Shown one piece after another: positions 10,876 to 23,685 of a stretch of 42,550 nucleotides of DNA; positions within the stretch are counted from its first letter, which is position 1, and the number at the start of each line of letters is the position of its first letter. This stretch comes from Cellulomonas sp. B6 (GTDB lineage Bacteria; Actinomycetota; Actinomycetes; Actinomycetales; Cellulomonadaceae), in the NCBI RefSeq assembly GCF_001462455.1, contig NZ_LNTD01000063.1, forward strand, positions 1 to 42,550, written 5' to 3'. The notes beneath the pieces were generated by a model, which saw nothing but the letters and a program-made list of their open reading frames with translations, ran no database searches and was not told the DNA's origin. The translations under genes were made by a program, and so were the position numbers.

Positions 10876-11502
10876 GTGCCCGCGCACCCTCAGCACGAGC
10901 CCACCGCCCGCCCCGCCCTGCGCGCCGTCGACGCGCCCGGGGACGCCGTGCCCGACGCGTCGGGCGACGACGCGGCTGCGGGGACGCACGACCCGAGTCC
11001 GCCGTCCGCTGCCCTCGCGGACCGCGACGCCGCCTGGTTCGAGGGCCTCGTCACCGACCACGCCACCGCGGTGCACCGCTACCTCGCGCGGCGCGTGGCC
11101 CCGTCGGACGTCGAGGACCTCGCGGCGGACGTGCTGACGGTCGCGTGGCGGCGCCGCGCCGACGTGCCCGCCGGCGCGGAGCTCCCGTGGCTGTACCGCA
11201 CCGCCGGTTACGTCGTGTCGAACCACCGGCGCAAGGGCCGGCCGGTCCCGGTGGCCGACGTGCCCGAGGAGGTCGACGCCGACGACCCGGCGCTGCGTGC
11301 CGTCCGCGACGAGACCGTGCGCGGCGTGCTGGCGGGGCTGTCGCCGCGCGACCGCGAGGTCCTGCTGCTGCACGCGTGGGAGGGCCTGACGGGCGACGCG
11401 CTCGCGGCCGTGCTCGGCGTCGGCCGCGGTGGCGCCGACGCGGCGCTGTCACGTGCGCGCAGCAGGCTGCGCGCCGCGTTCGACGAGGCCGGCGTCTCCT
11501 GA
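10876..11502 (+). CDS. ECF-family RNA polymerase sigma factor
   Basis: 208 residues from the GTG at 10876, which follows GGGAG by 5 nt; the upstream frame is low-complexity. Region 2 includes FEGLVTDHATAVHRYLARR and SDVEDLAADVLTVAWRR; the gap to region 4 is short; region 4 has LSPRDREVLLLHAWEGLTG and a helix-turn-helix ending ADAALSRARSRLRAAF. This is the two-domain sigma2-sigma4 architecture of group IV sigma factors. The N-terminal 50 residues are Ala/Pro/Asp-rich and probably disordered. The next gene encodes a single-pass membrane protein, the usual arrangement with an anti-sigma or target gene. Confidence 0.9.
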   Translation: MPAHPQHEPTARPALRAVDAPGDAVPDASGDDAAAGTHDPSPPSAALADRDAAWFEGLVTDHATAVHRYLARRVAPSDVEDLAADVLTVAWRRRADVPAGAELPWLYRTAGYVVSNHRRKGRPVPVADVPEEVDADDPALRAVRDETVRGVLAGLSPRDREVLLLHAWEGLTGDALAAVLGVGRGGADAALSRARSRLRAAFDEAGVS

Positions 11503-11536
11503 CGCACCCGCCCGCGCGGCGGGCGCGGCCCGGGGT

Positions 11537-11565
11537 ACGTGCAAGAGCCGCGGCCCCGGGCACAC
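11537..11565 (+). promoter_or_regulatory. Second copy of the putative ECF promoter element
   Basis: ACGTGCAAGA (11537-11546), 15 nt, ACAC (11562-11565), matching the element at 10772-10800. It lies 49 bp upstream of the ATG at 11615. Confidence 0.55.
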
Positions 11566-11614
11566 AGACGGGGTGGAGGGCGGCGACGCCCGGCGACCGG
11601 CTCGGAGGGACACC

Positions 11615-13108
11615 ATGAACGACACGCGCGAACCCCGCGGCACGTCCAGCGACGACGAGGGAACGGCCGCGGCCGGCGACGCGGTGACCGCGGCCGAGGA
11701 CGCAGCGGTCGCGCGCGTGCGCGCGGCCGACCCGGCCGCCGACGCGACGCCCGACCTGCCGCGCCTGCAGGCGCGCCTGACCGGCACCACGGGCGTGGCC
11801 GTCGGCGGTGCCGTGCACGGCGACGGCCACGTCGACGAGGACGGCGACGAGCTCGCGGCCGCGCGGCGACGCCGACGCGGACCCGCGCGCTGGCTGCAGG
11901 TCGCGGCCGTCGCGGTCGGCGTCGGCCTGGTCGGCGGCGGCGGGTACGCGGTCGGGGCGGCGGGCGGCGACGCGCCGGCGGCCCCGCCGATCGCGCTGCA
12001 GGGGGTCTCGCCCGCGTCGGGCCCGGCCATGGAGATGGGCGCGGGAACCGCGCTCGCGGACCGCGCGAAGATCGCCCCCGGCTGGTTCGGCGGGCGCACG
12101 GTCTTCACCGCCGACGGGCTGACCGGTGCCGCCGGGACCGGGCGCGCGTGGGCGTTCGACGCCACGGGCACCGCGACGCGTGAGACCGCGGCGCGGGTCG
12201 CCGAGGTGCTCGGGGTCGACGGCGAGCCCCGGCAGGAGTGGGGGCAGTGGGTCGTCGGCCCGAACGACGGAACGGGCGCGACCGTGTCGCTCGGCATCGA
12301 CGGGCAGGCCGGCATGTGGTTCTACGACCGCGCGTGGGACCCGTCGCTGTGCGGGCTGGACACCCCGGGGTCGGCCCCGTCGGTCGAGCCCGCGCCCGAC
12401 CCCGCGGGCGGCGACCTCGCCACCACCGAGCCCGGCCTCGCGATCGCGCCCGTCCAGCCCGAGGAGGTCGCCCCCGCCGACCCGAGCGTGTGCGACCCCG
12501 CGTCCACGCCGCGCGGCGACGCGGCGCGGTCCGCCGCGCGCGACCTGCTCACGCGCCTGGGCGTGGACCTCTCGGGCGCCGAGCTCACCGTCTCGGAGGA
12601 CACGGGCGTCGACGGGCTCGTCTCCGTCATGGCCGCGCAGGTCGTCGACGGCACGCAGACCGGGCTCGTGTGGTCGGTGCAGCTCGCCGGCACGGGCGTG
12701 CAGTCCGTGTCGGGTGCGCTCGCCCCGCTCGTCGAGCTGGGGACGTACGACGTCATCAGCGCCGACGCGGCCGTCGAGCGGCTCAACGACCCGCGGTTCG
12801 GCGCGAGCTACGGCGGGGTCGTGCCGCTCGCGGTGCGCATGATGGACGACGCGTCCGCGCCGATGACGTCGGACGTGGCGCCCGAGCCCGCCGAGCCCAC
12901 CGTGCCGCCCGTGCCGGCCGCGGGCGACCCGATCGCGTGGCCCGTGCAGCAGGTGACGATCACCGGCGCCCGCCTCGGGGTCACGCTGCTGACGGCACCG
13001 GACGGCGCGAGCCTGCTCGTGCCCGCCTGGGAGCTGAGCGACGCCGACGGCGGGACGTGGAGCGTCGTCGCGGTCGTCGACGACCAGCTCGACCTCAGCG
13101 CGGGCTGA
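11615..13108 (+). CDS. Single-pass membrane protein co-located with the ECF sigma factor
   Basis: 497 residues; ATG at 11615 behind GGAGGG. The cytoplasmic N-terminus (1-92) is acidic, then basic just before one membrane segment (about 94-117, VAAVAVGVGLVGGGGYAVGA). The large outer domain contains two Cys in WDPSLCGLD and PSVCDPAS, which could form a disulphide, and two similar alpha-beta halves (TAARVAEVLGV and SAARDLLTRLGV). Position directly after the sigma gene and a shared promoter element suggest an anti-sigma factor or main regulon target. No recognisable zinc anti-sigma HxxxCxxC motif is present, so that role is unproven. Confidence 0.8.
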   Translation: MNDTREPRGTSSDDEGTAAAGDAVTAAEDAAVARVRAADPAADATPDLPRLQARLTGTTGVAVGGAVHGDGHVDEDGDELAAARRRRRGPARWLQVAAVAVGVGLVGGGGYAVGAAGGDAPAAPPIALQGVSPASGPAMEMGAGTALADRAKIAPGWFGGRTVFTADGLTGAAGTGRAWAFDATGTATRETAARVAEVLGVDGEPRQEWGQWVVGPNDGTGATVSLGIDGQAGMWFYDRAWDPSLCGLDTPGSAPSVEPAPDPAGGDLATTEPGLAIAPVQPEEVAPADPSVCDPASTPRGDAARSAARDLLTRLGVDLSGAELTVSEDTGVDGLVSVMAAQVVDGTQTGLVWSVQLAGTGVQSVSGALAPLVELGTYDVISADAAVERLNDPRFGASYGGVVPLAVRMMDDASAPMTSDVAPEPAEPTVPPVPAAGDPIAWPVQQVTITGARLGVTLLTAPDGASLLVPAWELSDADGGTWSVVAVVDDQLDLSAG

Positions 13109-13261: not shown

Positions 13262-13267
13262 TAGCGT
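13262..13267 (+). promoter_or_regulatory. Original -10 box of the exonuclease gene (now stranded)
   Basis: TAGCGT ends 6 nt before the ATG at 13274, the spacing expected for a leaderless transcript. It would now drive only the 19-codon stub. The element brings an equivalent box at 22701-22706. Confidence 0.5.
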
Positions 13268-13273
13268 GCCCCC

Positions 13274-13333
13274 ATGGCTGCCACCGCCGGTCCTGCGGGA
13301 CGTCTGCTGCTGCTCGACTCCGCCTCGCTGTAG
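13274..13333 (+). pseudogene. Severed 5' end of the 5'-3' exonuclease gene
   Basis: Nineteen codons (MAATAGPAGRLLLLDSASL) followed by TAG. The last nine residues RLLLLDSASL versus KLLLLDSASL match the start of the exonuclease at 22714, and the reading is cut precisely where the flanking 17-bp repeat ends. This is the native N-terminus left behind when the element integrated. The stop codon comes from element sequence. Confidence 0.85.
13311..13327 (+). repeat. attL core repeat
   Basis: TGCTCGACTCCGCCTCG, identical to 22745-22761. Identity continues after one mismatch (C here, T at right) with TGTA. Confidence 0.8.
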
Positions 13334-13349
13334 GCGTCCAATAGACACA

Positions 13350-13945
13350 TTGAGCAATACCAAGCCCCGCCGCGTCGTCAGATACGTCCGCCTCTCTCGC
13401 GCCGATGACGACTCGACCTCGGTTCCGCGTCAGCGCCAGATCATCACGGCCGTTGCCTCGGTGCGCGGCTGGGACCTCGTCGAGATCGTCGAGGACGTCG
13501 ACGTATGCCCATCGAAGCGGCGCCTCGATCCGCCCGGGGCTCGGCCGCGTGCGCGCGCTCGTCCGCGACGGTGCCGCGGACACCGTCCTCGTCTGGCACC
13601 TCGACCGGCTCGAGTGCTCGGTCGTTGACTTCGGTCTCCTCCTCGACGAAGGGCTCGACGTCGTCTCGGAAACGGAGCCGCTCGACACGACCTCTTCCAT
13701 GGGCCGTGCCACGGCCGAGCGAGGTCGACGTCCGCCGTGTACTACTCGCGGGCGTAGTCGACGGTCCAGTAGTGCTCCGCCCCGGCGTCCGCGGCCGGCG
13801 CGGCGTTGACGCCGCCCGGGTCGATGTCCTTTGGCGCTGGCTCGACGAGTCGGCTGCATCCCACGTAGACGCCTGTCCGCGCACCCCAGAGGGCCGAGTG
13901 AACCATGCGCCGGGGTGCGGTCGGCCTGACGCCGAGAGTGTCTAG
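13350..13945 (+). pseudogene. Serine integrase (large serine recombinase), decayed
   Basis: A TTG at 13350 opens a resolvase-type N-terminus: VVRYVRLSRADDD contains the catalytic Ser, then SVPRQRQIITAVASVRGWD and VEDVDVCPSKRRLD. A frameshift near 13530 moves the frame by one: RPGLGRVRALVRDGAADTV, VWHLDRLECSVVDFG and VSETEPLDTTSSMGR continue the catalytic domain. A further shift and large deletion follow; the stop at 13943-13945 comes after VDAARVDVLWRW, resembling the C-terminal strand of serine integrases. Full-length enzymes have 450-600 residues; only about 190 codons remain. Location directly inside attL fits an integrase. It cannot be functional. Confidence 0.85.
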
Positions 13946-13990
13946 ACGACGAGAAGCCCCCGACCGGTTATCGTTGGGGGCCTTCGTCGT
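13946..13990 (+). terminator. Integrase terminator
   Basis: Near-perfect stem: ACGACGAGAAGCCCCCGAC (left arm) pairs with GTTGGGGGCCTTCGTCGT (right arm) with small bulges around a short loop CGGTTATC. It starts right after the integrase stop codon. Hairpins with CCCCC/GGGGG arms in this position are typical of actinobacterial phages and integrative elements. Confidence 0.75.
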
Positions 13991-14084
13991 GATGCAGGAC
14001 GAGTAGCGGTGCGCGGTGCGTGGGGCGCGTCGCGTCTCTGACACCGGTTGGTGCGAGACGGTTCGGGAATGATGCTTGCTGCCG

Positions 14085-14669
14085 ATGCTTCAACCACGCA
14101 TACCGGCATGGACTGGAGCGACGCTCTACCGTGGAATCGCGGCGATCGTCGGGACGACGACCCTCCTGCTCTCGGTATGGAATCGCCACGTCGAGCAACT
14201 CCTCGCGAGGACCCGCGTAACGGCCTGGGCAGTCCCGGTTGACCTCAGCGGCGACATCGCCGACACGGGGGCCATCTTGTGGGTTCGGAACGGGACCGGC
14301 GTCGCGCTCCAGGGGGTGAGGGTGTTCGTTAAGCCTCGCAACATCGAGCCCACGACCGTCGCGCCCGGAGCGCCAAAGTACGGGATGAGCACGGTGCCGG
14401 TGCCATTCGTCGTGCCGCCTCATGAGACGATCCGGAGCGTGGTCCCGGGTCACAGTTTCAGCGCCTGGATAGGGCAGTCGGACTACGAACTGATCACCGA
14501 GGTGTTCTTTCAGGACGCGCTCGGCACCTGGTGGGTGCGCACCGCGGCGGGTCGAGTGGTACGCCATGACCGCATGAGGCAGTACCTGATCGGTCCACCT
14601 TCGTTCGGTTCGCCGCCCAGCCGCTGGACACGATGGCTGCCGCGACGCGGATTTCGGCACCCGGGGTGA
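14085..14669 (+). CDS. Hypothetical membrane-anchored protein of the element
   Basis: 194 residues from ATG 14085 (a TTG at 14076 is in frame). One N-terminal membrane segment (about residues 15-31, YRGIAAIVGTTTLLLSVW) precedes a beta-rich domain with phrases such as ILWVRNGTGVALQGVRVFV and FVVPPHETIRSVVPGHSF. That looks like an immunoglobulin-like fold, but no family is recognised. Codon use is less GC3-biased than the host genes. It is the first of three small plus-strand genes between integrase and IS remnants. Function unknown. Confidence 0.65.
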   Translation: MLQPRIPAWTGATLYRGIAAIVGTTTLLLSVWNRHVEQLLARTRVTAWAVPVDLSGDIADTGAILWVRNGTGVALQGVRVFVKPRNIEPTTVAPGAPKYGMSTVPVPFVVPPHETIRSVVPGHSFSAWIGQSDYELITEVFFQDALGTWWVRTAAGRVVRHDRMRQYLIGPPSFGSPPSRWTRWLPRRGFRHPG

Positions 14670-14726
14670 CCGGTCTTGCGCGGCGCGGTCTTGTCCGCCG
14701 TGATTGGGCCCGGCAGGGTCAGCGGC

Positions 14727-15140
14727 ATGGGTCTCTTCTCCCGCTCGACCTCGCCGATTGTTGTGCTCTCACGCCGCAAGGACGGCTCGGTGCTTCGCGG
14801 TCGGCGTCTGCCCTTCGCCGAGACGCTGTACGTGGCCGGGACGCCGCCGATATGGGGTCTCGCGGCGCGTCCCGAGCCGAGTGAGCGCGTCGCGCGGGTC
14901 CGGATCGACGACGTACTCTCGGTCGAGCGCGACGAACGCGGGTGGACGGTGTCTGACGCGGCCGGGGTGCTAGGGCGTGCTCGATGGCGGGCCGGCGACG
15001 ACGGCAAGGTCTACGCCCGGACGGGTGCGGTCATCGCATATCCGGACCATGGAACGCTCGTCGTGTCGCAGCTGCTCCAGCGGGACGGGCACGTCGTCGA
15101 CTTCGGCGGCGTCGTGACGCCGACTGCTGGGGACGGCTAG
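14727..15140 (+). CDS. Hypothetical protein of the element
   Basis: 137 residues from ATG 14727; an upstream TTG at 14676 is in frame but the sequence from MGLFSRSTSPIVV reads as the natural start. No signal peptide, no membrane segment. The middle (RVARVRIDDVLSVERDERGW) and end (VVDFGGVVTPTAGDG) look beta-rich. It follows the previous gene by 57 bp on the same strand. Family not recognised. Confidence 0.55.
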   Translation: MGLFSRSTSPIVVLSRRKDGSVLRGRRLPFAETLYVAGTPPIWGLAARPEPSERVARVRIDDVLSVERDERGWTVSDAAGVLGRARWRAGDDGKVYARTGAVIAYPDHGTLVVSQLLQRDGHVVDFGGVVTPTAGDG

Positions 15141-15248
15141 GAGATTGCCGCGTCTTCTAGTGCGAAGCGACGCTTCCTCGCGCAAGGCGGTTGCCCCGGA
15201 CTCGCCAAAACGCGCACGCCAGAGCACCGGACGCGGCAAGATCGCGAC

Positions 15249-15782
15249 GTGGAACTTGGGACGTGGGGTGAGTGGGCCGGCGCAATCGGGACGACGGCGG
15301 CGACGGCCGTTGCCCTCGGACTCGGCCTGCGCGACGACGACGCGCGACGAAGCCGCAATGCCGCACGCAGGCGTCTCCACGCTGCGGCCGGAGCCCTCGT
15401 CGTCGATCTGGACCGTCGCGAGGACCGAATGGACGAGTGGGACGGCGGCGACGAAATGACGACGATGCTCGGGCGCGCAGCCGAATGCGCGCCGCTGTAC
15501 GGAGCAGCGTTGGAGTTGGGGCCCGTCCGTCGCTGGCGCTCGCTTCGTCTCCTGACGCGGCTCTACGGTGCCGAGGTCGTGCGCTACATCAGGGTTGCAC
15601 GCGGTCCACTCGACGCTCTCGACGGCGGCGACGACGCCGCAAGGTGGTTCCTTGCTGATCCTCAGCGGCTCCATGACGCGAGTCGCCGTGTGCCGCTGCG
15701 GCAGAGCGGCGCCTGCGATGACGCGCGGAGACGTGACCGCGAGTCGTTGCGGAGCGTCCTTCAGCGGATCAGTCGGGTTTAG
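15249..15782 (+). CDS. Hypothetical membrane-anchored protein of the element
   Basis: 177 residues from a GTG at 15249. The start WGEWAGAIGTTAATAVALGLGL is a membrane segment typical of short phage- or island-encoded actinobacterial proteins, followed by a basic, helical cytoplasmic part (DDDARRSRNAARRRLHAAAG). No catalytic motif seen. The 3' end abuts an IS481 remnant, so the original C-terminus may have been altered. Function unknown. Confidence 0.6.
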   Translation: MELGTWGEWAGAIGTTAATAVALGLGLRDDDARRSRNAARRRLHAAAGALVVDLDRREDRMDEWDGGDEMTTMLGRAAECAPLYGAALELGPVRRWRSLRLLTRLYGAEVVRYIRVARGPLDALDGGDDAARWFLADPQRLHDASRRVPLRQSGACDDARRRDRESLRSVLQRISRV

Positions 15783-16013
15783 CGGCTCGACGGTACGCGC
15801 CGTTGGGCTTCGGCTGCCCCGACAGGTCCCACCGCTTCACCGTCGGCCGCGAGCCGAGCTGCAACCTCACCGATGGGGGCCTGCTGATCGAGCACCAATG
15901 GAGCGACGGTGAGCCGGGCGCGGGGCGTCAGGGCGGCGTTAGCGTGGACAACGAGGGCCTCCTGTGAGCGAAGCGGATACCTGGGCAGTTCCACTCCACT
16001 GTGGGAGGCCCTC
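15783..16013 (-). mobile_element. IS481-family transposase remnant
   Basis: On the minus strand VVHANAALTPRARL and PIGEVAAR reproduce the N-terminal helix-turn-helix of IS481 transposases. A small deletion then shifts the frame, after which SRPTVKRWD continues the motif in another frame. Only about 60 codons survive of about 300; no DDE domain is present. A 10-bp inverted repeat, GAGGGCCTCC (15953-15962) with GGAGGCCCTC (16004-16013), lies at the transposase 5' side and could be part of its leader. Inactive. Confidence 0.7.
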
Positions 16014-16074
16014 CTCGCGCATCACTGCGTCAGCGCGTCCCACCTCACTCGATCAATGATTCCCTGTCGGTACA

Positions 16075-16240
16075 GCTAGGGCATGTCTCCTATAGCTGAT
16101 GGTGGTGGTCGGGCAGGCTGGCCCGGTGGTTTCGTCTTCCCGGGATCGGCTGTTCTCCGACGAGCAGAGGGCTCGGGTCGAGCCGTTGCTGCCCTCGAAC
16201 GACGGGCGACGGGCGACGGGCGACGGAGACACGCCCTAGC
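16075..16240 (+). mobile_element. Internally deleted IS5-like element with both terminal inverted repeats
   Basis: GCTAGGGCATGTCTCC (16075-16090) is inverted at 16225-16240 as GGAGACACGCCCTAGC, one mismatch in 16. CTAG at both outer ends fits a duplicated target, as known for the IS427 group of the IS5 family. Between them an open frame at 16126-16239 encodes SRDRLFSDEQRARVEPLLPS, the typical IS5-family transposase N-terminus, then a short tandem GACGGGC repeat and a stop. It is a 166-bp MITE-like derivative that could be moved in trans. Confidence 0.7.
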
Positions 16241-16444
16241 CGCTGAGCGGCCGAGCCTCGAACCGCGGCCACGGTCGGGGGTTCGGCGGGCCGACTTGCG
16301 GCACGGTCACGCGGCACGGGCGCCGCGCCGCGCACCCGGGGTGCACGCGGCGCGGCCAGTGACTGACCTGCCGAAACCTGCCCCGCGGGGTGCGGCGGTA
16401 CGGCACGATCGAATCACCCCGATCCGACGTCCCTGGAGCGGCCC
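16241..16444. other. Non-coding gap upstream of the helicase gene
   Basis: 204 bp between the IS5-like remnant and the helicase. GGAG at 16435-16438 is the helicase ribosome binding site. The promoter was not identified with confidence; nothing else was recognised. Confidence 0.4.
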
Positions 16445-19400
16445 GTGCCGTACATGACCGCACCTGTGTGGGCGCGCGCCGTCTCCGTGGGCGCGCACGA
16501 GGTCCGGCAACTCATCGTTCCCCCGCACGAGGGCATCGAAGTGCGCACCACGGATGACGGTGAGTTCGCGTTCAGCGCGCGAGGGCGGTGGCCGGTGGTC
16601 CGCGGCGTGCACCGGACACCGCAGGACCCGATGGCCGCGGTGCTCCCGGTCCTCGCCTCGACGAACAGGCTCACCTGGACCGGGAACCTCGACTCGATGA
16701 GCACGAAGTCCGCGGTGCTCGACTCCTACGTGGACGCGGTCTCGTTCCAGATCCACGGCGCCGGCGGAGGTCTGCGTCGCCCACAGGTCGGCGCGCTGCA
16801 CTCGATCATCGGCTACCAGGCGTCGGGAGTCACCGACCCGGCGATCGTCGTCATGCCGACGGGCACCGGGAAGACCGAGACGATGGTCGCCTGGATGGTG
16901 GCGACCCAGCCCGAGGCCGTGCTCGTCATCGTGCCGTCGGACGTCCTGCGTGAGCAGATCGCCGGAACGTTCGAGACGCTGGGAATCCTCCAGGAGGTCG
17001 GCGCCGTGGCCCCCGGCGCGCTACGCCCCCGGGTCGTGCGCCTCGGTCACCGGATCGCCGACGAGGACGAGGCCCTCGAGCTCGTCGCCTCCGCCAACGT
17101 CATCGTGGCGACGCCGAAGGTGCTCAGTCACTGCGAGCCGGAAGTCCGACAGGCGCTGTTCGCGGCGTGCAGCCACCTCGTCGTCGACGAGGCGCACCAC
17201 GCACCCGCCCGGACCTGGTCGGAGATCATCGACGCGTTCGCCGGCCGGCCCGTTCTGCTGTTCACCGCCACACCGTTCCGCACGGACCGTCGTGTCATCC
17301 CGGGCCGGACGATCTTCCGGTTCCCGTTGCGGCTCGCTCAGGAGCAGGACTACTTCAGCAAGATCGACTTCACGGCCGTGCTCGGGACGGGTGACCCGGA
17401 CGAGGACCTCGCCGCGGCCGCCGTCCAACGGCTGCGGTCGGACCGCGCAGCCGGACTTGAGCACGTCATGCTGGCCCGCGCCCGTGATCGCGCGCACGCC
17501 GAAGAGCTCCACGACCTCTACACCGAGATCGCCCGTGATCTGCAGCCCCGAATCGTCCACGAGGGCCTGACGAAGAAGGCCATCAAGTCGAACCTGGCCG
17601 ACCTGCGCTCCGGGATCTGCAAGATCGTCGTGTGCGTCGACATGCTCGGCGAGGGGTTCGACCTGCAGACCCTGAAGGTCGCGGCGTTCCACGAGGCTCG
17701 GCGGTCGCTGAGCCCGATGATCCAGCTCATCGGGCGGGTCGCGCGCGTCTCCACGAAGCACAAGGTCGGCACCGCGTCGGTTTTCGTCAAGCGCGAACCC
17801 GAGATCGCGTGGTCGCCGATGCGGTACCTGCTGCGCGAGGACGCGGACTGGAACAGCGTGCTGAGTAACATCTCCGAGCAGGAGACCGCACGCGCCGAGG
17901 AGGAGCGGGAGTTCGCGAACTCGTTCCCAGACCACCCGGCTGATATCCCGGTCGGCCTGCTCGAGCCGAAGATGAGCGCCGTCGCGTTCGAGACCTCGGT
18001 GGCGGACTGGGCTCCTGAAGCGGCGCGCACCGCCTACGGTGACCGGATCCTCGACGGCGTCGTCAGCACGAGCCGGCACGGCGACCTGGCCTGGTTCGTC
18101 CTTGAGGTGCCCGCGGAGCTGCGGTGGGGGCGGATCCCCTCGCTCCAGGTCGCGAGCTACAACCTCGTCATCATGTTCCTCGACGTCCGGCACGGGCTGC
18201 TGTTCGTGCACGGCTCGGACACCAAGAAGGACTACGCACCCCTGGCGGAGGCAGTACTCGGACACCCCGCCGTGGCGCTCAAGGGAAAGCCCACCTTCCG
18301 GGTCTTTGGCGGTGTCGACCGCGTGGTGCCCACGAACGTGGGCCTGCTCGACCCACGTGACCGGGAGGCGCGGTTCGCCCTGTTCGTCGGATCGAATGTC
18401 GAGAACGCGATCCGCCCGGCCAACGGGCAGCCGAAGTCCAGGACCCACATCGCCGCCTCCGGCTACGACACCGGCAACCGCGTCACCATCGCGGCCGCGA
18501 TGTCCGGACGGTTCTGGTCCATGCGCGCAGCTAACGGCCTGCTCGAGTGGCGCAACTGGTGCGTGCAGCAGGGCGCCCGGCTGACCGACCGGACGATTGA
18601 CGTCGACGCCGTCTTCGGTGGGATGCTCGTCCCGACGCCCGTGACGGCGCGCCCCGCGCACCCGCTGCTCGCGGTCGAGTGGCCCTGGGAGCTGTACCTC
18701 GGCAACGGCACGGCGCTCCGGTTGGAGCACGACGGGAAGAGCGTCATGATCACCGACGCCGACTTCGAGATCGACGACCACGGCACCACTGGGCCGTTCC
18801 GCTTCACCGTGGTGACCCCGGACTGGCGCCTTGGCTACACGGCCAGCGTCGGGCAGGACGGCGTCCATTACCTCCCTGTGTGCGACGAGGCCCAGGTCAG
18901 CGCGCGTCGTGGGGAGCCCGTCCCGCTGTCGGACTGGCTTAACGCGCACAAGCCGACCCTGTACCTGTCGGGAGACCGCATGATCACCGGCGACGACCAC
19001 CTGGTCGACGCCAGTGACAGCGTGGAACCTTTTGACCGCAACCGTCTCGAGGTGCGGACCTGGGACGGGGTCGACATTCGCGTTGAGTCGCAGGGCGACG
19101 CCCGGCGTGCGGACTCCATCCAGGCGTACGTGGCCCGTGAGCTGCTCGCCGAGCAGGACTTCGACGTCCTCATCGACGACGACAGGGCGGGCGAGGCCGC
19201 CGACCTGGTCGGGCTGCGCATCGACGGTTCCGACCTGGTCATCACCCTCGTGCACTGCAAGTATTCCGTGGGGAGCACCCCCGGCGCGCGGGTCGACGAC
19301 CTGTACGACGTCTGCGGGCAGGCCACTCGCGGAGCCCGCTGGCGCGACCACGGCGGGCTGCCTCTGCTGAAGCACCTCGACCGTCGAGTCCGGGCCTACT

Positions 19401-19624
19401 ACCGACGGCACAACCGCCACCCGCTAGAGGTGGGCACGATCGAGGACCTGTACCGCGTCGTGTCCCTCGCCCCGCAGCTGTACCCGCGCTTCGTCACCGT
19501 CGTCGCGCAGCCGGGCATCAGCAAGGTGCGGTGCTCGGCCGAGCAGCTCCGGCTCCTCGCCGGGGCCGAGAGCTACCTGCGCGCTATCACCAAAGGTCCG
19601 CTGCGTGTGCTGGTGTCCGAGTAG
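16445..19624 (+). CDS. SF2 DEAD/DEAH helicase with C-terminal PD-(D/E)xK-like nuclease domain (candidate defence effector)
   Basis: 1059 residues; GTG at 16445 follows GGAG by 6 nt (ATG 16454 is an alternative). Helicase motifs: I VMPTGTGKTE (about 138-147), II VVDEAHH (about 245), III LFTATPFR, V VCVDMLGEGFD, VI IQLIGRVARV. The region 500-880 is beta-rich with no known domain. The C-terminus (about 895-960) has a helix SIQAYVARELLAEQDFDV, then GEAADLVGLRI and ITLVHCKYSVG, then ARVDDLYDVCGQA: the Asp-x(n)-(E/H)xK layout of PD-(D/E)xK nucleases with His-Cys-Lys in place of Glu-x-Lys. Fused helicase-nucleases on islands are commonly anti-phage or restriction effectors; no methylase is adjacent. 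Named system unknown. Confidence 0.88.
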   Translation: MPYMTAPVWARAVSVGAHEVRQLIVPPHEGIEVRTTDDGEFAFSARGRWPVVRGVHRTPQDPMAAVLPVLASTNRLTWTGNLDSMSTKSAVLDSYVDAVSFQIHGAGGGLRRPQVGALHSIIGYQASGVTDPAIVVMPTGTGKTETMVAWMVATQPEAVLVIVPSDVLREQIAGTFETLGILQEVGAVAPGALRPRVVRLGHRIADEDEALELVASANVIVATPKVLSHCEPEVRQALFAACSHLVVDEAHHAPARTWSEIIDAFAGRPVLLFTATPFRTDRRVIPGRTIFRFPLRLAQEQDYFSKIDFTAVLGTGDPDEDLAAAAVQRLRSDRAAGLEHVMLARARDRAHAEELHDLYTEIARDLQPRIVHEGLTKKAIKSNLADLRSGICKIVVCVDMLGEGFDLQTLKVAAFHEARRSLSPMIQLIGRVARVSTKHKVGTASVFVKREPEIAWSPMRYLLREDADWNSVLSNISEQETARAEEEREFANSFPDHPADIPVGLLEPKMSAVAFETSVADWAPEAARTAYGDRILDGVVSTSRHGDLAWFVLEVPAELRWGRIPSLQVASYNLVIMFLDVRHGLLFVHGSDTKKDYAPLAEAVLGHPAVALKGKPTFRVFGGVDRVVPTNVGLLDPRDREARFALFVGSNVENAIRPANGQPKSRTHIAASGYDTGNRVTIAAAMSGRFWSMRAANGLLEWRNWCVQQGARLTDRTIDVDAVFGGMLVPTPVTARPAHPLLAVEWPWELYLGNGTALRLEHDGKSVMITDADFEIDDHGTTGPFRFTVVTPDWRLGYTASVGQDGVHYLPVCDEAQVSARRGEPVPLSDWLNAHKPTLYLSGDRMITGDDHLVDASDSVEPFDRNRLEVRTWDGVDIRVESQGDARRADSIQAYVARELLAEQDFDVLIDDDRAGEAADLVGLRIDGSDLVITLVHCKYSVGSTPGARVDDLYDVCGQATRGARWRDHGGLPLLKHLDRRVRAYYRRHNRHPLEVGTIEDLYRVVSLAPQLYPRFVTVVAQPGISKVRCSAEQLRLLAGAESYLRAITKGPLRVLVSE

Positions 19625-19946
19625 GAAGGCCGGGCGGCACAGCGAACCTGCAGAGATGCCCCGACTCGATAAGCGGCACGCGGACCTGATTCCTGCGTCG
19701 GGTAACGCGATCCGGCAACGTGTGTGGACGCCCACAACGACACCTGTCCTGCAACCGCACGATCTGCTCCGGCGCGCGTCTCGGCGGAAGCGCACGGCGA
19801 GGGCACCCGTCGGCCTCGAGCGCGCGTTCGAAGTGGTCTCAGGGACTGCCCGGGCTTGTAACGGCGTCGATGTCGCGCATCGCTGGGTCGGGAAAGTGAC
19901 ACCCGGATCCGGGGGCGGCGGCTCGTGCGCCCGCACGCGCAGCCGA
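19625..19946. other. Intergenic stretch without recognisable gene
   Basis: 322 bp between the convergent helicase and the DUF4411 remnant. Open frames on both strands are short, Arg/Ser-rich and lack ribosome binding sites. No repeats or RNA genes were recognised. It holds GCCCGGGCTTGTAAC (19848-19862), which nearly repeats at 22642-22656. Confidence 0.4.
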
Positions 19947-20359
19947 TTAGCGTTGTTCCCGCCGCAGCAACCCTGACATGCCAGTGGTGTGTATCCCGAA
20001 CTCCGCGCACGCGAACGGGATATTCGGACGGGTGCGGGAGGGGGTAGATCCTTCACTGCGTTCGAGGGATATCACGGTCAGGTCGTGCACGCCCGCGAGT
20101 GTGATGACCATGAGATCGCCGAGGTAGTGGCGGTCCCGGCCGTAAGCGGGGCACCTGTTGACGATCGTCTTCGCGAGGGCGAGCTGCTCCGTCGTAGGGC
20201 CCCGGAATTCGTGGTGAGGCGCTCGAACACCGCCCACTGCGTAGCGAACACGTCGGAGCCGTAGAACTCGTCGTCGCCGCGACTGAGGAACGACACGATC
20301 ACGTTGGTGTCGATGCAGTAGCGGGGTGTGACGCCGAACAGCGAGGGTCGCGACGTCAT
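19947..20359 (-). pseudogene. DUF4411 (PIN-like) toxin remnant
   Basis: Starting at ATG 20359, TPRYCIDTNVIVSF is the PIN/DUF4411 N-terminus with the first catalytic Asp; FATQWAVFERL follows. Near 20200 the frame shifts, with apparent loss of about 30 residues, and continues as TTEQLALAKTIVN, HYLGDLMVITLAGVHDLTVIS and PNIPFACAEFGIHTTG, matching the second half of DUF4411 proteins (GDxxVIxLA, then the xPxIPxxCxxxGI motif). Stop TAA at 19947-19949. DUF4411 ribonuclease-like toxins are usually encoded just downstream of an XRE-ImmA/IrrE antitoxin, as here. The frameshift makes it inactive. Confidence 0.75.
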
Positions 20360-20518
20360 CCAGCGGCACCGTTCGACAGACCTCTCGGGCAAAAAGCCTT
20401 CCGACACGGTTGATCTGCGTGGGGTAGTAGCTTCCGCTGGGCTCGATTCGGACCGACGGCGCTGGCGGCGCGCGTCGAGGGCGTCGAACATCGGCAGGCT
20501 GAGGATGCCTCGGTCGCG

Positions 20519-21376
20519 CTACCTGATCAGGATGACAGCCTGGTTGACCCCCTCGAGGCGGCGCAGGTCTTGGAGGTGGGCGTCGTCCTCCTCAGGGTCG
20601 TTCCCCCCACGCCCATGCTCGCTCGGCCTGAACCGTAGCCGCCGGGAGGAGCGTGGCCGCGGCCACCGCGTTGCAGAAGCGTTCGACGCTGGCGTGGTCG
20701 TCGAGGTCGCACACGCGGGTCGCGTGCATCAGGACGTGAACGTATTCGTGCACCAAGGAGAACACCCGAGCGCAGGGCGGTCGCCCGTGTCAACGGCGAC
20801 GATGCACCGAGCATTGCGGCGCAGACTGAACGCCCGCACGGTCGGGTCGTCCAGCCGGCGTTGCGAGACGTACACATGCTGGTCGTGCAGCGCAGCGAGC
20901 CACAATCGCAAATAACCGTACTGACCTCGTGGCGCGCGTTGCTGCCCGACTGAAACTCCGAGGGCCTCACGCACCGGGCGGCCGGCGGCTTCGACGTCGG
21001 AGTCCGGGCGATGATCACGGCTGGCAACCGCGTGCGCGCCTCCGGGAACAGATCCGCGGAGGCTTCGAGCGTGCGTTCGGCGGCTTCAAGCTCGTGGATG
21101 AGCGCCGCGCTGAGGCCGCTACGTCGGTTCGTGACGGTGCGGTGGTCCTGATCGGTCGGGGGAGGGTTCCGGGTCGTCGATCAGAAGGTACGGCCACGGC
21201 TGCTTCACGACAACCGCGATCGCGATTAGGTCGTCGAGGTCGACTTCCGAGTCCTGCTCGACGATGGCGCCGAGGTCGACAGGGCGCGTGATCCGGGTCG
21301 CGACGTCCGCGGCGATCATGCGCCGGTTCGCCAGCACGCCTTGGATGCGTACTGCGCTGACACTAACGAGCGGCAT
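20519..21376 (-). pseudogene. XRE-ImmA/IrrE family antitoxin remnant (COG2856-like)
   Basis: The frame from ATG 21376 gives an XRE-like start (AVRIQGVLANRRMIAADVATR ending VDLDDLIAIAVVVKQPWPYLLIDDPEP, quoted in part). After a frameshift near 21140 the minus strand continues LSAALIHELEAAERTLEAS; a second shift near 20960 gives VREALGVSVGQQ and YLRLWLAALHDQHVYVSQRRL; a third near 20770 gives FSLVHEYVHVLMHATRVCD with the HExxH zinc motif, and VERFCNAVAAATLLPA. Stop TAG at 20519-20521. Order and motifs match ImmA/IrrE antitoxin proteins, but at least three shifts inactivate it. Its start overlaps the end of the GIY-YIG gene by 14 bp. Confidence 0.75.
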
Positions 21377-22265
21377 AGTCGAAAGGTAACCGTTCACCGC
21401 TCGCGTCCGATCCGTGGAGGCGGCCAGACACTGAGGAGCGGGTGCTGGACTCCAGGTAGTTGCGAGCCGTCATCCGGGCGATTCGTTCGGTGTTGAACGC
21501 GTCGGCGAACAGTGCCCGGCCGCGAGCGGTGTCCAACAGCCGCGCTCGGATCTCCGTGTTGCCGGCCGGGGCGTCGGTCGCCGACATCAACGCCTGCGTT
21601 CGCGCAGGGTGCAGCAGGTCCATCTCGAACTCGCACGCCTCGTCGTCGGTCCACAGCTCGCGGATCGATCGGCGAGCGACGAACAGGTTGTCGGTGGCGC
21701 CGGTGAGCAGCGCAATGAGTGATGCCCCGATTCCTCCTTTGGCCTGCCCGGCGCCCGTCCTGCTGCCGCCGACCTTGTTCCACCGAGGGAGGGCGCCGGT
21801 GCCTAGACGTGAGGCCTCGATGAGCTGACCCTCGAGGGTGGCTATCGCGTCTCGAGAGTCCTGGTCGTATGCGAACTCCTCGGACCAGTCGACGTCACCG
21901 TCGATCGCCTTCTTGAACCGTGCGACGTGCGCCTGATCGAGCGGCGACTGCACGAAGGTCGCGAACCCGAGGCGCTCGTGCTCGGTGAACCAGTGTGCGA
22001 TTTGCTCACGCTTGCAGGACCGTGCCGGCGTCGGGTAGAGGGCATTGTGCTGCGCGAACCGGTTCGGTACGTCGACAGCGAGGCCGATGTACAGGAGCGG
22101 GTCGACGCCGTTGCGCGTGCCGGTGCGGCCCGGGTCGTAGAACGCGTAGACCGCGGTGCTCGCCCAGCCGTAGTTGTCCTCGGCGCTGGCCACTCCGTCG
22201 AGCGCTCTATGGACCTCAGGAGTCTGGTCGCGCGTGTACACATCCCACAGAACGGTGCCGAACAT
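21363..22265 (-). CDS. GIY-YIG nuclease domain protein
   Basis: 300 residues, ATG at 22265 behind AAGGA with 7-nt spacing. The domain spans about 38-165: VYAFYDP (GIY strand), LLYIGLAVDVPNRFAQHN (YIG at 59-61, catalytic-type Arg69, His73), TLEGQLIEAS (metal-binding Glu145) and LPRWNKVGG (conserved Asn163). All core residues of GIY-YIG endonucleases are present. The 130-residue C-terminus is helical, of unknown function, possibly target recognition. It is intact while the two genes downstream on the same strand are decayed, which suggests separate selection. Roles could be restriction, homing or repair. Confidence 0.85.
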   Translation of the reverse strand: MFGTVLWDVYTRDQTPEVHRALDGVASAEDNYGWASTAVYAFYDPGRTGTRNGVDPLLYIGLAVDVPNRFAQHNALYPTPARSCKREQIAHWFTEHERLGFATFVQSPLDQAHVARFKKAIDGDVDWSEEFAYDQDSRDAIATLEGQLIEASRLGTGALPRWNKVGGSRTGAGQAKGGIGASLIALLTGATDNLFVARRSIRELWTDDEACEFEMDLLHPARTQALMSATDAPAGNTEIRARLLDTARGRALFADAFNTERIARMTARNYLESSTRSSVSGRLHGSDASGERLPFDYAAR

Positions 22266-22700
22266 GTCCGCATCCTTGCGTCGGTGCGCGTTGCCGCGAG
22301 CCGGTTTCGCTCACCGTCACCCGTTCGCTAGCACGTGCGAACGCCAGAAAGACCTAGCGCGCCCGCTGCCTGGGCGACGCCAGCCTAGTCTCGCCCCTCA
22401 GGTAGAAAAGGAGACGCCCGGGGTTTGGAGCCCCAGCGTGACCACGTCGACGCTCCCCTCCGGATCGCGCTCGATCGACGCACCCGTCCCCGGAGAACGC
22501 GGCGCCGACGTGGCGCGGGTGTGAGCCTGGGAGGGACACCTGCGGGAGTAGGTCAGCCGGACCCGCGATAGCTACGCCCGCGATAGGGGGTCGTGCGGGC
22601 GGGACGAAGCCGTCCATCCACTCGGAAGAGTGCTTCGTCAGGCCCGAGCTTGTAACAGGCGAGTCCGGGTGAAGGCGGGCGGGCGTGGTCGGTCAGGTCG
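22266..22700. other. Right-end non-coding region of the element
   Basis: 435 bp. It carries the upstream region of the minus-strand GIY-YIG gene and leads into the element-supplied exonuclease promoter. A 28-codon frame at 22438-22524 (GTG start, GGAG 7-8 nt upstream) is possible but unsupported. No tRNA or excisionase gene was recognised. Confidence 0.45.
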
Positions 22701-22706
22701 TACGCT
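22701..22706 (+). promoter_or_regulatory. Element-supplied leaderless promoter for the exonuclease
   Basis: TACGCT ends 7 nt before the ATG at 22714 and no ribosome binding site is present, so transcription probably starts at the ATG. It replaces the native TAGCGT at 13262-13267. A -35 box is not obvious. Confidence 0.5.
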
Positions 22707-22713
22707 CCAACTC

Positions 22714-23685
22714 ATGGGCACATCGCGGCAGGAGAAGTTGCTTTTGCTCGACTCCGCCTCGTTGTACTTCCGCGCCTACTTCGGGGTCCCGGACTCGGTG
22801 CGTGCCCCCGACGGGGCACCCGTCAACGCGGTGCGGGGCTTCCTCGAGATGGTCGCCCGGCTGGTCGCGGAGCGTCGCCCGACGCGGCTCGTCGCGTGCT
22901 GGGACGAGGACTGGCGGCCCGCGTTCCGCGTCGAGGCGGTGCCGTCGTACAAGGCGCACCGCGTCGCGCGCGAGGTGCCGGGCACGACGGGCGTCGAGGA
23001 CGTGCCGGAGGCCCTGACGGCGCAGGTCCCCGTGATCGTCGACCTGCTGGCCGCGCTCGGCGTCCCGCGGCTCGGGGCACCCGGGTACGAGGCCGACGAC
23101 GTCATCGGCACGCTCGTCGCGCGCGAGTCCGCGCGCCCGGCGGGGGAGCGCTCGGCGGTCGACGTCGTCACGGGCGACCGCGACCTGTTCCAGCTCGTCG
23201 ACGACGACGTGCCGGTGCGCGTGCTCTACCCGGTCAAGGGCGTCAAGGACCTCCTGGTCGTCGACCAGGGCGTGCTCGACGAGCGGTACGGCGTGCCCAC
23301 CGGGCGCGCCTACGCCGAGATGGCCGTGCTGCGTGGCGACCCGAGCGACGGCCTGCCCGGCGTGCCGGGCATCGGTGAGAAGACCGCGGCGGCGCTGCTG
23401 CGCCGGTACGGCACGCTCGCCGGGGTGCTCGCGGCGCGTGACGCCGGCGACCGCGGCCTGACGGCGACGCAGCGGACCCGCCTGACCGACGCGGCCGACT
23501 ACCTCGCGGTCGCGCCGCGCGTCGTCACGGTCGCGCCCGACGCACCCGTCGCCGAGGTCGACGACCGGCTCCCGCAGGCACCTGCCGAGCCCGACGCCCT
23601 CGTCGGGCTCGCGGAGCGCTGGGGGGTGGCCTCGAGCGTCCGGCGCGTCGTGGACGCGTTCACCGAGGCGGCCTCGGCCCGCTGA
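22714..23685 (+). CDS. 5'-3' exonuclease (PolA N-terminal type), 5' end rebuilt by the element
   Basis: 323 residues. N-terminal PIN-like fold with LLLLDSASLYFRAYFG, YEADDVIGTLVA and DVVTGDRDLFQLVDD (acidic metal-binding residues), then the helix-hairpin-helix GDPSDGLPGVPGIGEKTAAALL. The architecture matches stand-alone flap/5'-3' exonucleases that remove RNA primers and flaps. Codons 1-8 (MGTSRQEK) come from the element; from LLLLDSAS on it is host sequence. The native start survives at 13274. The rebuilt N-terminus differs only before the first catalytic strand, so activity should be kept. Expression now depends on the element's promoter. Confidence 0.93.
   Translation: MGTSRQEKLLLLDSASLYFRAYFGVPDSVRAPDGAPVNAVRGFLEMVARLVAERRPTRLVACWDEDWRPAFRVEAVPSYKAHRVAREVPGTTGVEDVPEALTAQVPVIVDLLAALGVPRLGAPGYEADDVIGTLVARESARPAGERSAVDVVTGDRDLFQLVDDDVPVRVLYPVKGVKDLLVVDQGVLDERYGVPTGRAYAEMAVLRGDPSDGLPGVPGIGEKTAAALLRRYGTLAGVLAARDAGDRGLTATQRTRLTDAADYLAVAPRVVTVAPDAPVAEVDDRLPQAPAEPDALVGLAERWGVASSVRRVVDAFTEAASAR
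22745..22761 (+). repeat. attR core repeat
   Basis: Second copy of TGCTCGACTCCGCCTCG (first at 13311-13327), lying in codons 11-16 of the exonuclease gene. Confidence 0.8.

Follow-up and report, generated by a model that had tools for sequence, protein, structure and literature searches.

The locus described here raises the question of how a gene can have two starts 9.4 kb apart and still remain open. It is located on contig NZ_LNTD01000063.1 (C63) of Cellulomonas sp. B6, one of the 279 contigs of this genome, and this whole contig, 42,550 bp in length, is the window that was analysed. The gene, fenA, encodes a 5'-3' exonuclease (flap endonuclease), and a preliminary description proposed that a serine-integrase element inserted in it supplies a replacement promoter and N-terminus. 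Residues 9-316 of the hybrid protein match PDB 6c33 with an E value of 3e-89, indicating near-full-length homology, and we take this structure to be mycobacterial FenA. A second exonuclease match elsewhere in the genome belongs to a separate, PolA-like frame of 911 codons. In Mycobacterium smegmatis, MSMEG_3883 is named fenA and described as a flap endonuclease, and a fenA-deleted strain has been used (PMC11551767).

At the left boundary, the native leaderless-type -10 hexamer TAGCGT (13262..13267, + strand, as are all features below unless stated otherwise) lies six bases before the ATG at 13274, and now heads only a stub. This stub (13274..13333), which resembles the native start of the sister genome G028, consists of the ATG and 18 more codons, reading MAATAGPAGRLLLLDSASL, and ends with TAG at 13331-13333. 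At the right boundary, a second -10-like hexamer, TACGCT (22701..22706), lies seven bases before a new ATG at 22714, and a new N-terminus, MGTSRQEKLLLLDSASLY, with the residues MGTSRQEK, is fused in frame to the remainder of the exonuclease. The resulting hybrid fenA (22714..23685) begins MGTSRQEKLLLLDSASLYFRAYFG and is open to its stop codon at 23683-23685; its first codons are element-derived and it is native from the end of the LLLLDSASLY motif. Both boundaries contain the 17-bp repeat TGCTCGACTCCGCCTCG, at 13311-13327 and 22745-22761, followed by one mismatched base (C/T) and then TGTA, which gives the left and right attachment site cores attL (13311..13332) and attR (22745..22766). When the two boundary stretches were randomized 5000 times with a first-order Markov model, they never had a word of more than 13 bp in common, compared to 17 bp in the real sequence. 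The common core encodes LLLLDSASLY, of which the Asp is presumably a metal-binding residue. Thus, the layout of both boundaries given in the preliminary description is borne out. Its further claim that the arm of the element mimics the 5' end of the target, including the promoter spacing, stands for the copied motif and for the -10-like hexamer, but not for the spacing, which is 7 bases in the element arm and 6 in the native gene. The element-derived N-terminus is also two codons shorter than the native one. A TANNNT hexamer at a spacing of 6 or 7 has a probability of 0.0067 in DNA of the composition of the boundaries.

The closest genome, G028 (93% identity), carries an uninterrupted fenA that starts MAATPGPAGRLLLLDSASLYFRAFFG, with TAGCGT six bases before the ATG, and the same hexamer and spacing are found in most of the clade of G028. 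The gene of G028, beginning MAATPGPAGRLLLLDSASLYF, has the kind of start that the preliminary description had predicted for the empty site in a relative, and the flanks align across this site. In a blastn comparison with G028, the left flank match ends at 13332 and the right flank match begins at 22739, with an overlap of 28 bp in G028, and the seven further relatives that were shown give the same two limits in the window and a collinear empty site. The native open reading frame (ORF) in the left flank, coding for 559 amino acids (aa) without a Pfam match (11429..13108), is likewise collinear with the relatives up to the insertion point. For the genus, 75 fenA loci were scanned, the window and 74 others from all genus genomes with the gene, and a start was found in 74 of them, the exception being L121. 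The MGTSRQEK start occurs at the window locus only among these 74 loci, and the 1.8 kb of sequence available for G028 contains just one 5' end, so neither an uninterrupted exonuclease starting MGTSRQEK nor a duplicated 5' end in this element-free relative was seen, either of which had been named as an observation that would speak against an insertion. Because the G028 gene is uninterrupted, the flanks are collinear and MGTSRQEK is confined to the window locus, the left stub is, on this comparison, the native fenA start, and the right start arrived with the element. The ratio of nonsynonymous to synonymous substitution rates (dN/dS) between hybrid fenA and the G028 gene is 0.102, and the ten other pairs computed gave 0.106-0.169; judged by these ratios, fenA is kept open under purifying selection. 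Hybrid FenA is presumably made and functional.

The element extends from approximately 13333 to 22762 (9.4 kb) and has a GC content of 0.685, compared to 0.795 and 0.77 in its flanks. Homology to large serine integrases starts 18 bp past the attL core and covers 13350..13719, corresponding to the catalytic domain only, or approximately residues 1-118 of 470 in the numbering of the integrase of phage Liebe, with a frameshift near 13.53 kb. The Pfam family Resolvase is found in two frames of this remnant, the first piece scoring just below the cut-off, and tblastn with five phage integrases gave 44-71% identity on separate pieces (67% and 71% for Liebe). The serine integrases of the Arthrobacter phages Liebe and Maureen are among the closest relatives listed. 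The motif YVRLS, which we take to be catalytic, is present, so that a serine recombinase catalytic domain adjoins an attachment site, as would be expected for a large serine integrase. For the C-terminal integrase domains, tblastn gave no match in the element with an E value below 0.03, and the recombinase domain PF07508 has no match anywhere in the genome. A tyrosine integrase, which accompanies the attachment site in the published dusA and prfC examples, does not adjoin this one, where the neighbour is the serine recombinase remnant; a tyrosine integrase is not needed for how 5'-end replacement works. The preliminary description of a serine-integrase element holds as far as a remnant of such an integrase adjoins attL; this remnant is truncated and frameshifted, and its role in the insertion is deduced from its position.

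Very probably, an integrative element recombined site-specifically into the 5' end of fenA, with its arm supplying a substitute start, after which the integrase decayed and fenA was retained. The crossover would have taken place at the codons for Ser-Leu-Tyr in LLLLDSASLY. It would have severed the original -10, the ATG and the first 19 codons, readable in the sequence as the stub, and would have joined the left attachment arm of the element, with TACGCT-N7-ATG and MGTSRQEK, in frame to the remaining fenA, as can be read at the right boundary. The crossover may have been made by the large serine integrase of the element itself, as its remnant begins 18 bp past the attL core. The arm would copy the coding motif of the target so that the host keeps the gene on integration. 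The integrase would have decayed afterwards, and therefore the element would be unable to move by itself, while fenA would stay under purifying selection. Judging from the remnant, the element is a decayed integrative element that is not active.

Whether the new start is also a promoter was considered against the fenA starts of the genus as a whole. Of 74 starts scanned for motifs, 49 have a -10-like hexamer at a spacing of 6 or 7 (33 at 6 and 16 at 7), counting TANNNT and three GACT variants; near-variants such as CACACT were left uncounted, and among the 49 are the restarted genes of the window, G013 and G021. TACGCT-N7-ATG resembles these leaderless-type starts, and TACGCT is inferred to act as a promoter at the right boundary, putatively of the leaderless kind. 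Two loci of G018, L003 and L061, have a fenA without the usual -10 and ATG.

The same insertion site was found elsewhere, as the preliminary description had suggested it might be searched for. A stub followed by a restarted gene is present in 5 of the 74 genus loci, with a separation of 9434 bp in the window, 503 in G013, 484 in G021, 441 in G011 and 315 in G029. No further loci of this kind were found among 140 loci, which include genome repeats and many loci with little upstream sequence, or among 22 loci from the family search. In a fenA tree (74 rows, 423 columns), insert-free sisters are G028 for the window, G088 for G011, G080 for G029 and G098 for G021, and the neighbours of G013, G006 and G010, are also free of inserts. 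The well supported branches require five insert changes, gains or losses, on five positions of the tree. The inserts of G029 and G021 are related, with a synonymous divergence (dS) of 0.33, close to the 0.38 for the fenA start of the same pair; they possibly reflect separate gains, or one gain and several clean losses. Read against the sister sequence, the stub of G029 gives way to the gene between the Ala and Leu codons. In G011 this point falls between the third base of the Ser codon and that of the Leu codon, and in the window it is most simply placed in TGTA. It may be any point of 18 identical bases ahead of the Tyr codon in G013 and is not readable in G021. All readable switches fit the 8-bp stretch TCGCTGTA, without being resolved to a dinucleotide. 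Such a layout could arise from assembly if the contig joined unrelated sequences via the short repeat, and the large number of contigs in this genome is in keeping with that. This is scarcely conceivable given that the stub-plus-restart layout occurs at the same motif in four other genomes and that the join is in frame and yields an open gene.

The restarts differ between loci. The window uses TACGCT-N7-ATG, G013 TAGGTT-N6-GTG, and G021 a native-like CAGACT-N7-ATG after a decayed start. Two kinds of insert carry a Shine-Dalgarno signal in place of the -10: in G029, GGAGG-N8-ATG, with the ATG one base past the stop of the inserted ORF, and in G011, GGAGG-N4-ATG, with the ATG inside the end of the inserted ORF. 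The other inserts of the genus have used the same coding motif as the window element, and their genes restart from a leaderless-type -10 or from a Shine-Dalgarno signal adjacent to the inserted ORF. Ahead of the core, the arm of the window matches that of G013 at 20 of 21 bases, the best among 73 loci; the next best are the element arm of G011 and the native start of G005, both with 18 of 21, and native starts of the EK type reach 17-18. The window and G013 arms may share descent, or may come from hosts of the EK-type clade. EK-type starts in insert-free species were considered as scars of lost elements, a reading that we rejected as these starts follow a clade and may reflect plain inheritance. 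The fenA start of a Cellulomonas cellasea record (L184) resembles those of L297 and L298, from another genus of the family (g120).

The 5' end might also have been duplicated by ordinary tandem duplication or homologous recombination, with unrelated DNA filling the gap later and no site-specific recombinase involved. The last start of G021 has a native-like promoter as well, and approximately 76 bp are common to its stub and its restart, as homologous exchange would give; moreover, no recombinase was seen in the small inserts. Yet in the window, G029 and G011 the similarity to the nearest relatives begins within approximately 10 bases of the LLLLD codons. The same applies to G013 with the nearest relatives listed, although with others it begins approximately 30 bases earlier. 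The stub-to-gene switch also falls in the same motif, and in the window an integrase remnant adjoins attL, which makes a duplication improbable.

Several results weigh against the site-specific insertion of an element whose arm supplies a working start. The surroundings of the new start gave no sigma-70 -35/-10 pair, and its first codons contain a weak terminator-like hairpin of five pairs (22725-22741), where one was found against 0.1 in shuffled sequences. On the tree, the insert label showed no clustering beyond that of shuffled labels (500 of 500 as low), and the five changes may include losses; a lack of clustering would itself be as expected from separate events. The searches recovered no intact element, no free phage and no attP carrying this arm. 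The core pattern had 0 matches in viral contigs, a 23-residue start peptide had no phage match, and the window's own start peptide had only 8 weak phage matches, with E values of 1-9. A 76-aa integrase fragment was found in the window only, that is in 1 of 81 genus genomes (at 1e-6), 1 of 150 family genomes (1e-8) and 1 of 396 order genomes (1e-10), the family and order samples being drawn from larger groups. When the genus and family genomes, many of whose contigs are short, were compared by eye, the 60 kb ahead of fenA on its contig contained no PF07508 match. Finally, Liebe and the four other phages with remnant-like integrases carry no fenA-like arm upstream of the integrase gene, which implies a different attachment site for them, and therefore the link between the integrase and the fenA site rests on adjacency.

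The other searches give the background to these results. Of the 81 genus genomes, 23 have PF07508 and 75 have fenA; of the 150 family genomes, 63 and 122 do. A PF07508 match in G068, approximately 29 kb downstream of fenA, was set aside, as it is on the wrong side and does not fit an intact element. Scans of sequence collections with the integrase fragment (593 and 56 stretches) confirmed no relatives; these were weak scans, using peptide patterns taken from the remnant's own letters. The exact core pattern occurs in 61 of 396 order genomes, and twice only in the genome of the window. When the pattern was not to be followed by C, 44 stretches of genome contigs matched, comprising 37 intact genes with a TAT codon and 7 other matches. 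In two of these 7, L198 (an Actinomycetota metagenome-assembled genome, at ~4030) and L202 (Mycobacterium triplex, at ~3467), the core pattern is followed by a stop as in the window stub, with no fenA start in 8 kb; both matches are probably due to chance. Exonuclease homologues in viral contigs are distant, with at most 39% identity in the best 80 of 132, and those in phage records (173 records) are all under 60% identical.

The four small inserts are 0.3-0.5 kb long and contain one ORF each, co-directional with fenA, for which we assumed a GTG start just past the stub. When the loci are turned so that fenA is on the + strand, these ORFs are located at 9544-9990 of L073 (G013, 148 aa), 9742-9990 of L086 (G029, 82 aa), 9570-9818 of L097 (G021, 82 aa) and 9581-9958 of L123 (G011, 125 aa), each ending at, in or near the next fenA start. 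None has a Pfam, PHROGs or NCBIfam match. Among the 81 genomes, the 148-aa ORF is limited to G013, and no phage record matches it, while the 82-aa ORF is present at the fenA site of G021 and G029. A weak match of the latter in G068 (38%) was judged unrelated from its frames. Between G021 and G029, the 82-aa ORF has a dN/dS of 0.32 (bootstrap 0.15-0.67, with 0.2% of resamples at or above 1), and since the other two forward frames give 1.56 and 1.15, it is probably a real gene. The codon GC content at third positions (GC3) of the inserts is 0.68-0.76, below the 0.96 of the window fenA, which suggests that they are foreign DNA. In G021 (L097 9420-10100), three successive fenA starts can be read: the stub is followed by a GTG start that has decayed and then by an intact one with a native-like promoter. 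They suggest two events at one site.

What these inserts are can be explained in two ways. Because the window element is itself a leftover with a broken integrase, we lean towards the view that the inserts of G013, G029, G021 and G011 are what deletions have left of larger elements rather than mobile one-gene units, which is somewhat the likelier case. G021, in which over 100 bp with no recognised gene separate the decayed from the intact start, fits this view. Against it, three different inserts have an ORF that terminates at the new fenA start or within it, the presumed GTG lying 16-32 bp past the first base of the Tyr codon, and the ORF shared by G021 and G029 appears to be under purifying selection. 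A more doubtful idea, which we mention tentatively, is that the fenA start is a landing site for mobile single-gene cassettes. Such cassettes would be 0.3-0.5 kb circles, each with a single ORF, a fenA-copying arm and its own restart. A recombinase in trans would insert them, and the ORF would be driven by the native promoter of fenA, much like a gene in a cassette array, while the 9.4-kb serine element would have used the same spot.

Within the 9.4-kb element, the integrase remnant is followed by three ORFs without a Pfam or PHROGs family, coding for 197 aa (14076..14669), 154 aa (14676..15140) and 177 aa (15249..15782), and by a cargo gene for a helicase of 1059 aa with ResIII, DEAD and Helicase_C domains (16445..19624). 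An ORF of 300 aa on the - strand (21363..22265) shows a weak GIY-YIG match, sub-threshold in Pfam (E = 0.014). The helicase gave only weak PADLOC matches (best E 1.1e-9), and a role in defence would be a guess. Near-full-length homologues, 55% identical, are present in 2 other genomes of the order out of 287 searched. Both of them (L320 8022-11244 and L321 8122-11344) adjoin an open frame of approximately 1090 codons on the opposite strand, and the helicase is possibly one half of a two-gene system.

The principle of a promoter and N-terminus replacement is already known. Integrases of the dusA family are tyrosine integrases. For dusA and prfC elements with such integrases, an element-supplied promoter and N-terminus have been published (PMC8409611, PMC4482086, PMC2791158), and the fenA case shares with them an insertion within the 5' coding region of a gene that is uninterrupted in relatives, and a start codon with an in-frame N-terminus brought by the element. 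As at the fenA site, many different elements use the dusA site, including IMEVchUSA3 (PMC8409611; PMC4482086); more than 200 bacteria carry, at one site, dusA-associated islands and prophages with an integrase gene, and their integrase family was grouped with IntI and XerCD in a tree (PMC4482086). Unlike the fenA element, dusA elements occur in Proteobacteria and alter the N-terminus over 35 residues, and their expression was tested with lacZ fusions (PMC8409611). The SXT/R391 integrative conjugative elements in prfC, which the preliminary description had rightly named as a precedent, also target a 5' end and bring a new promoter and N-terminus (PMC2791158; as cited in PMC8409611), but they use a tyrosine recombinase and have nearly identical attP and attB sites. 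They are conjugative and measure ~100 kb. The Mycobacterium abscessus prophage system of pIF05, the one among three vectors made in that study that uses a serine integrase, resembles the fenA case in its actinobacterial host, its serine integrase and its predicted entry at the sixth codon of a SpoU-like methyltransferase gene; the target gene differs, and the authors call reconstituted expression unclear (PMC10654092). The dnaJ2 prophages of Bifidobacterium share an actinobacterial host and an attachment site in a coding gene that is rebuilt on integration, but they enter the 3' end of the gene with a tyrosine integrase (PMC6109161). One site in a prolyl isomerase gene is the target of 33 diverse serine recombinases (PMC10083194). 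Among the open-licence papers listed, we found no report of integration in fenA or in any 5'-3' exonuclease gene. The present case differs from the published dusA and prfC elements in its serine-integrase remnant, its leaderless-type start, the fenA target and the tiny inserts.

The fenA locus extends promoter and N-terminus replacement from proteobacterial elements with tyrosine integrases to an actinobacterial serine-integrase remnant, at a target start that looks leaderless. The genus provides a natural comparative series, in which four kinds of insert occur at a single site and the gene restarts from two kinds of signal. Should the small inserts prove to be mobile, they would represent a cassette system outside integrons. 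The fenA site may also serve integration vectors in this genus.

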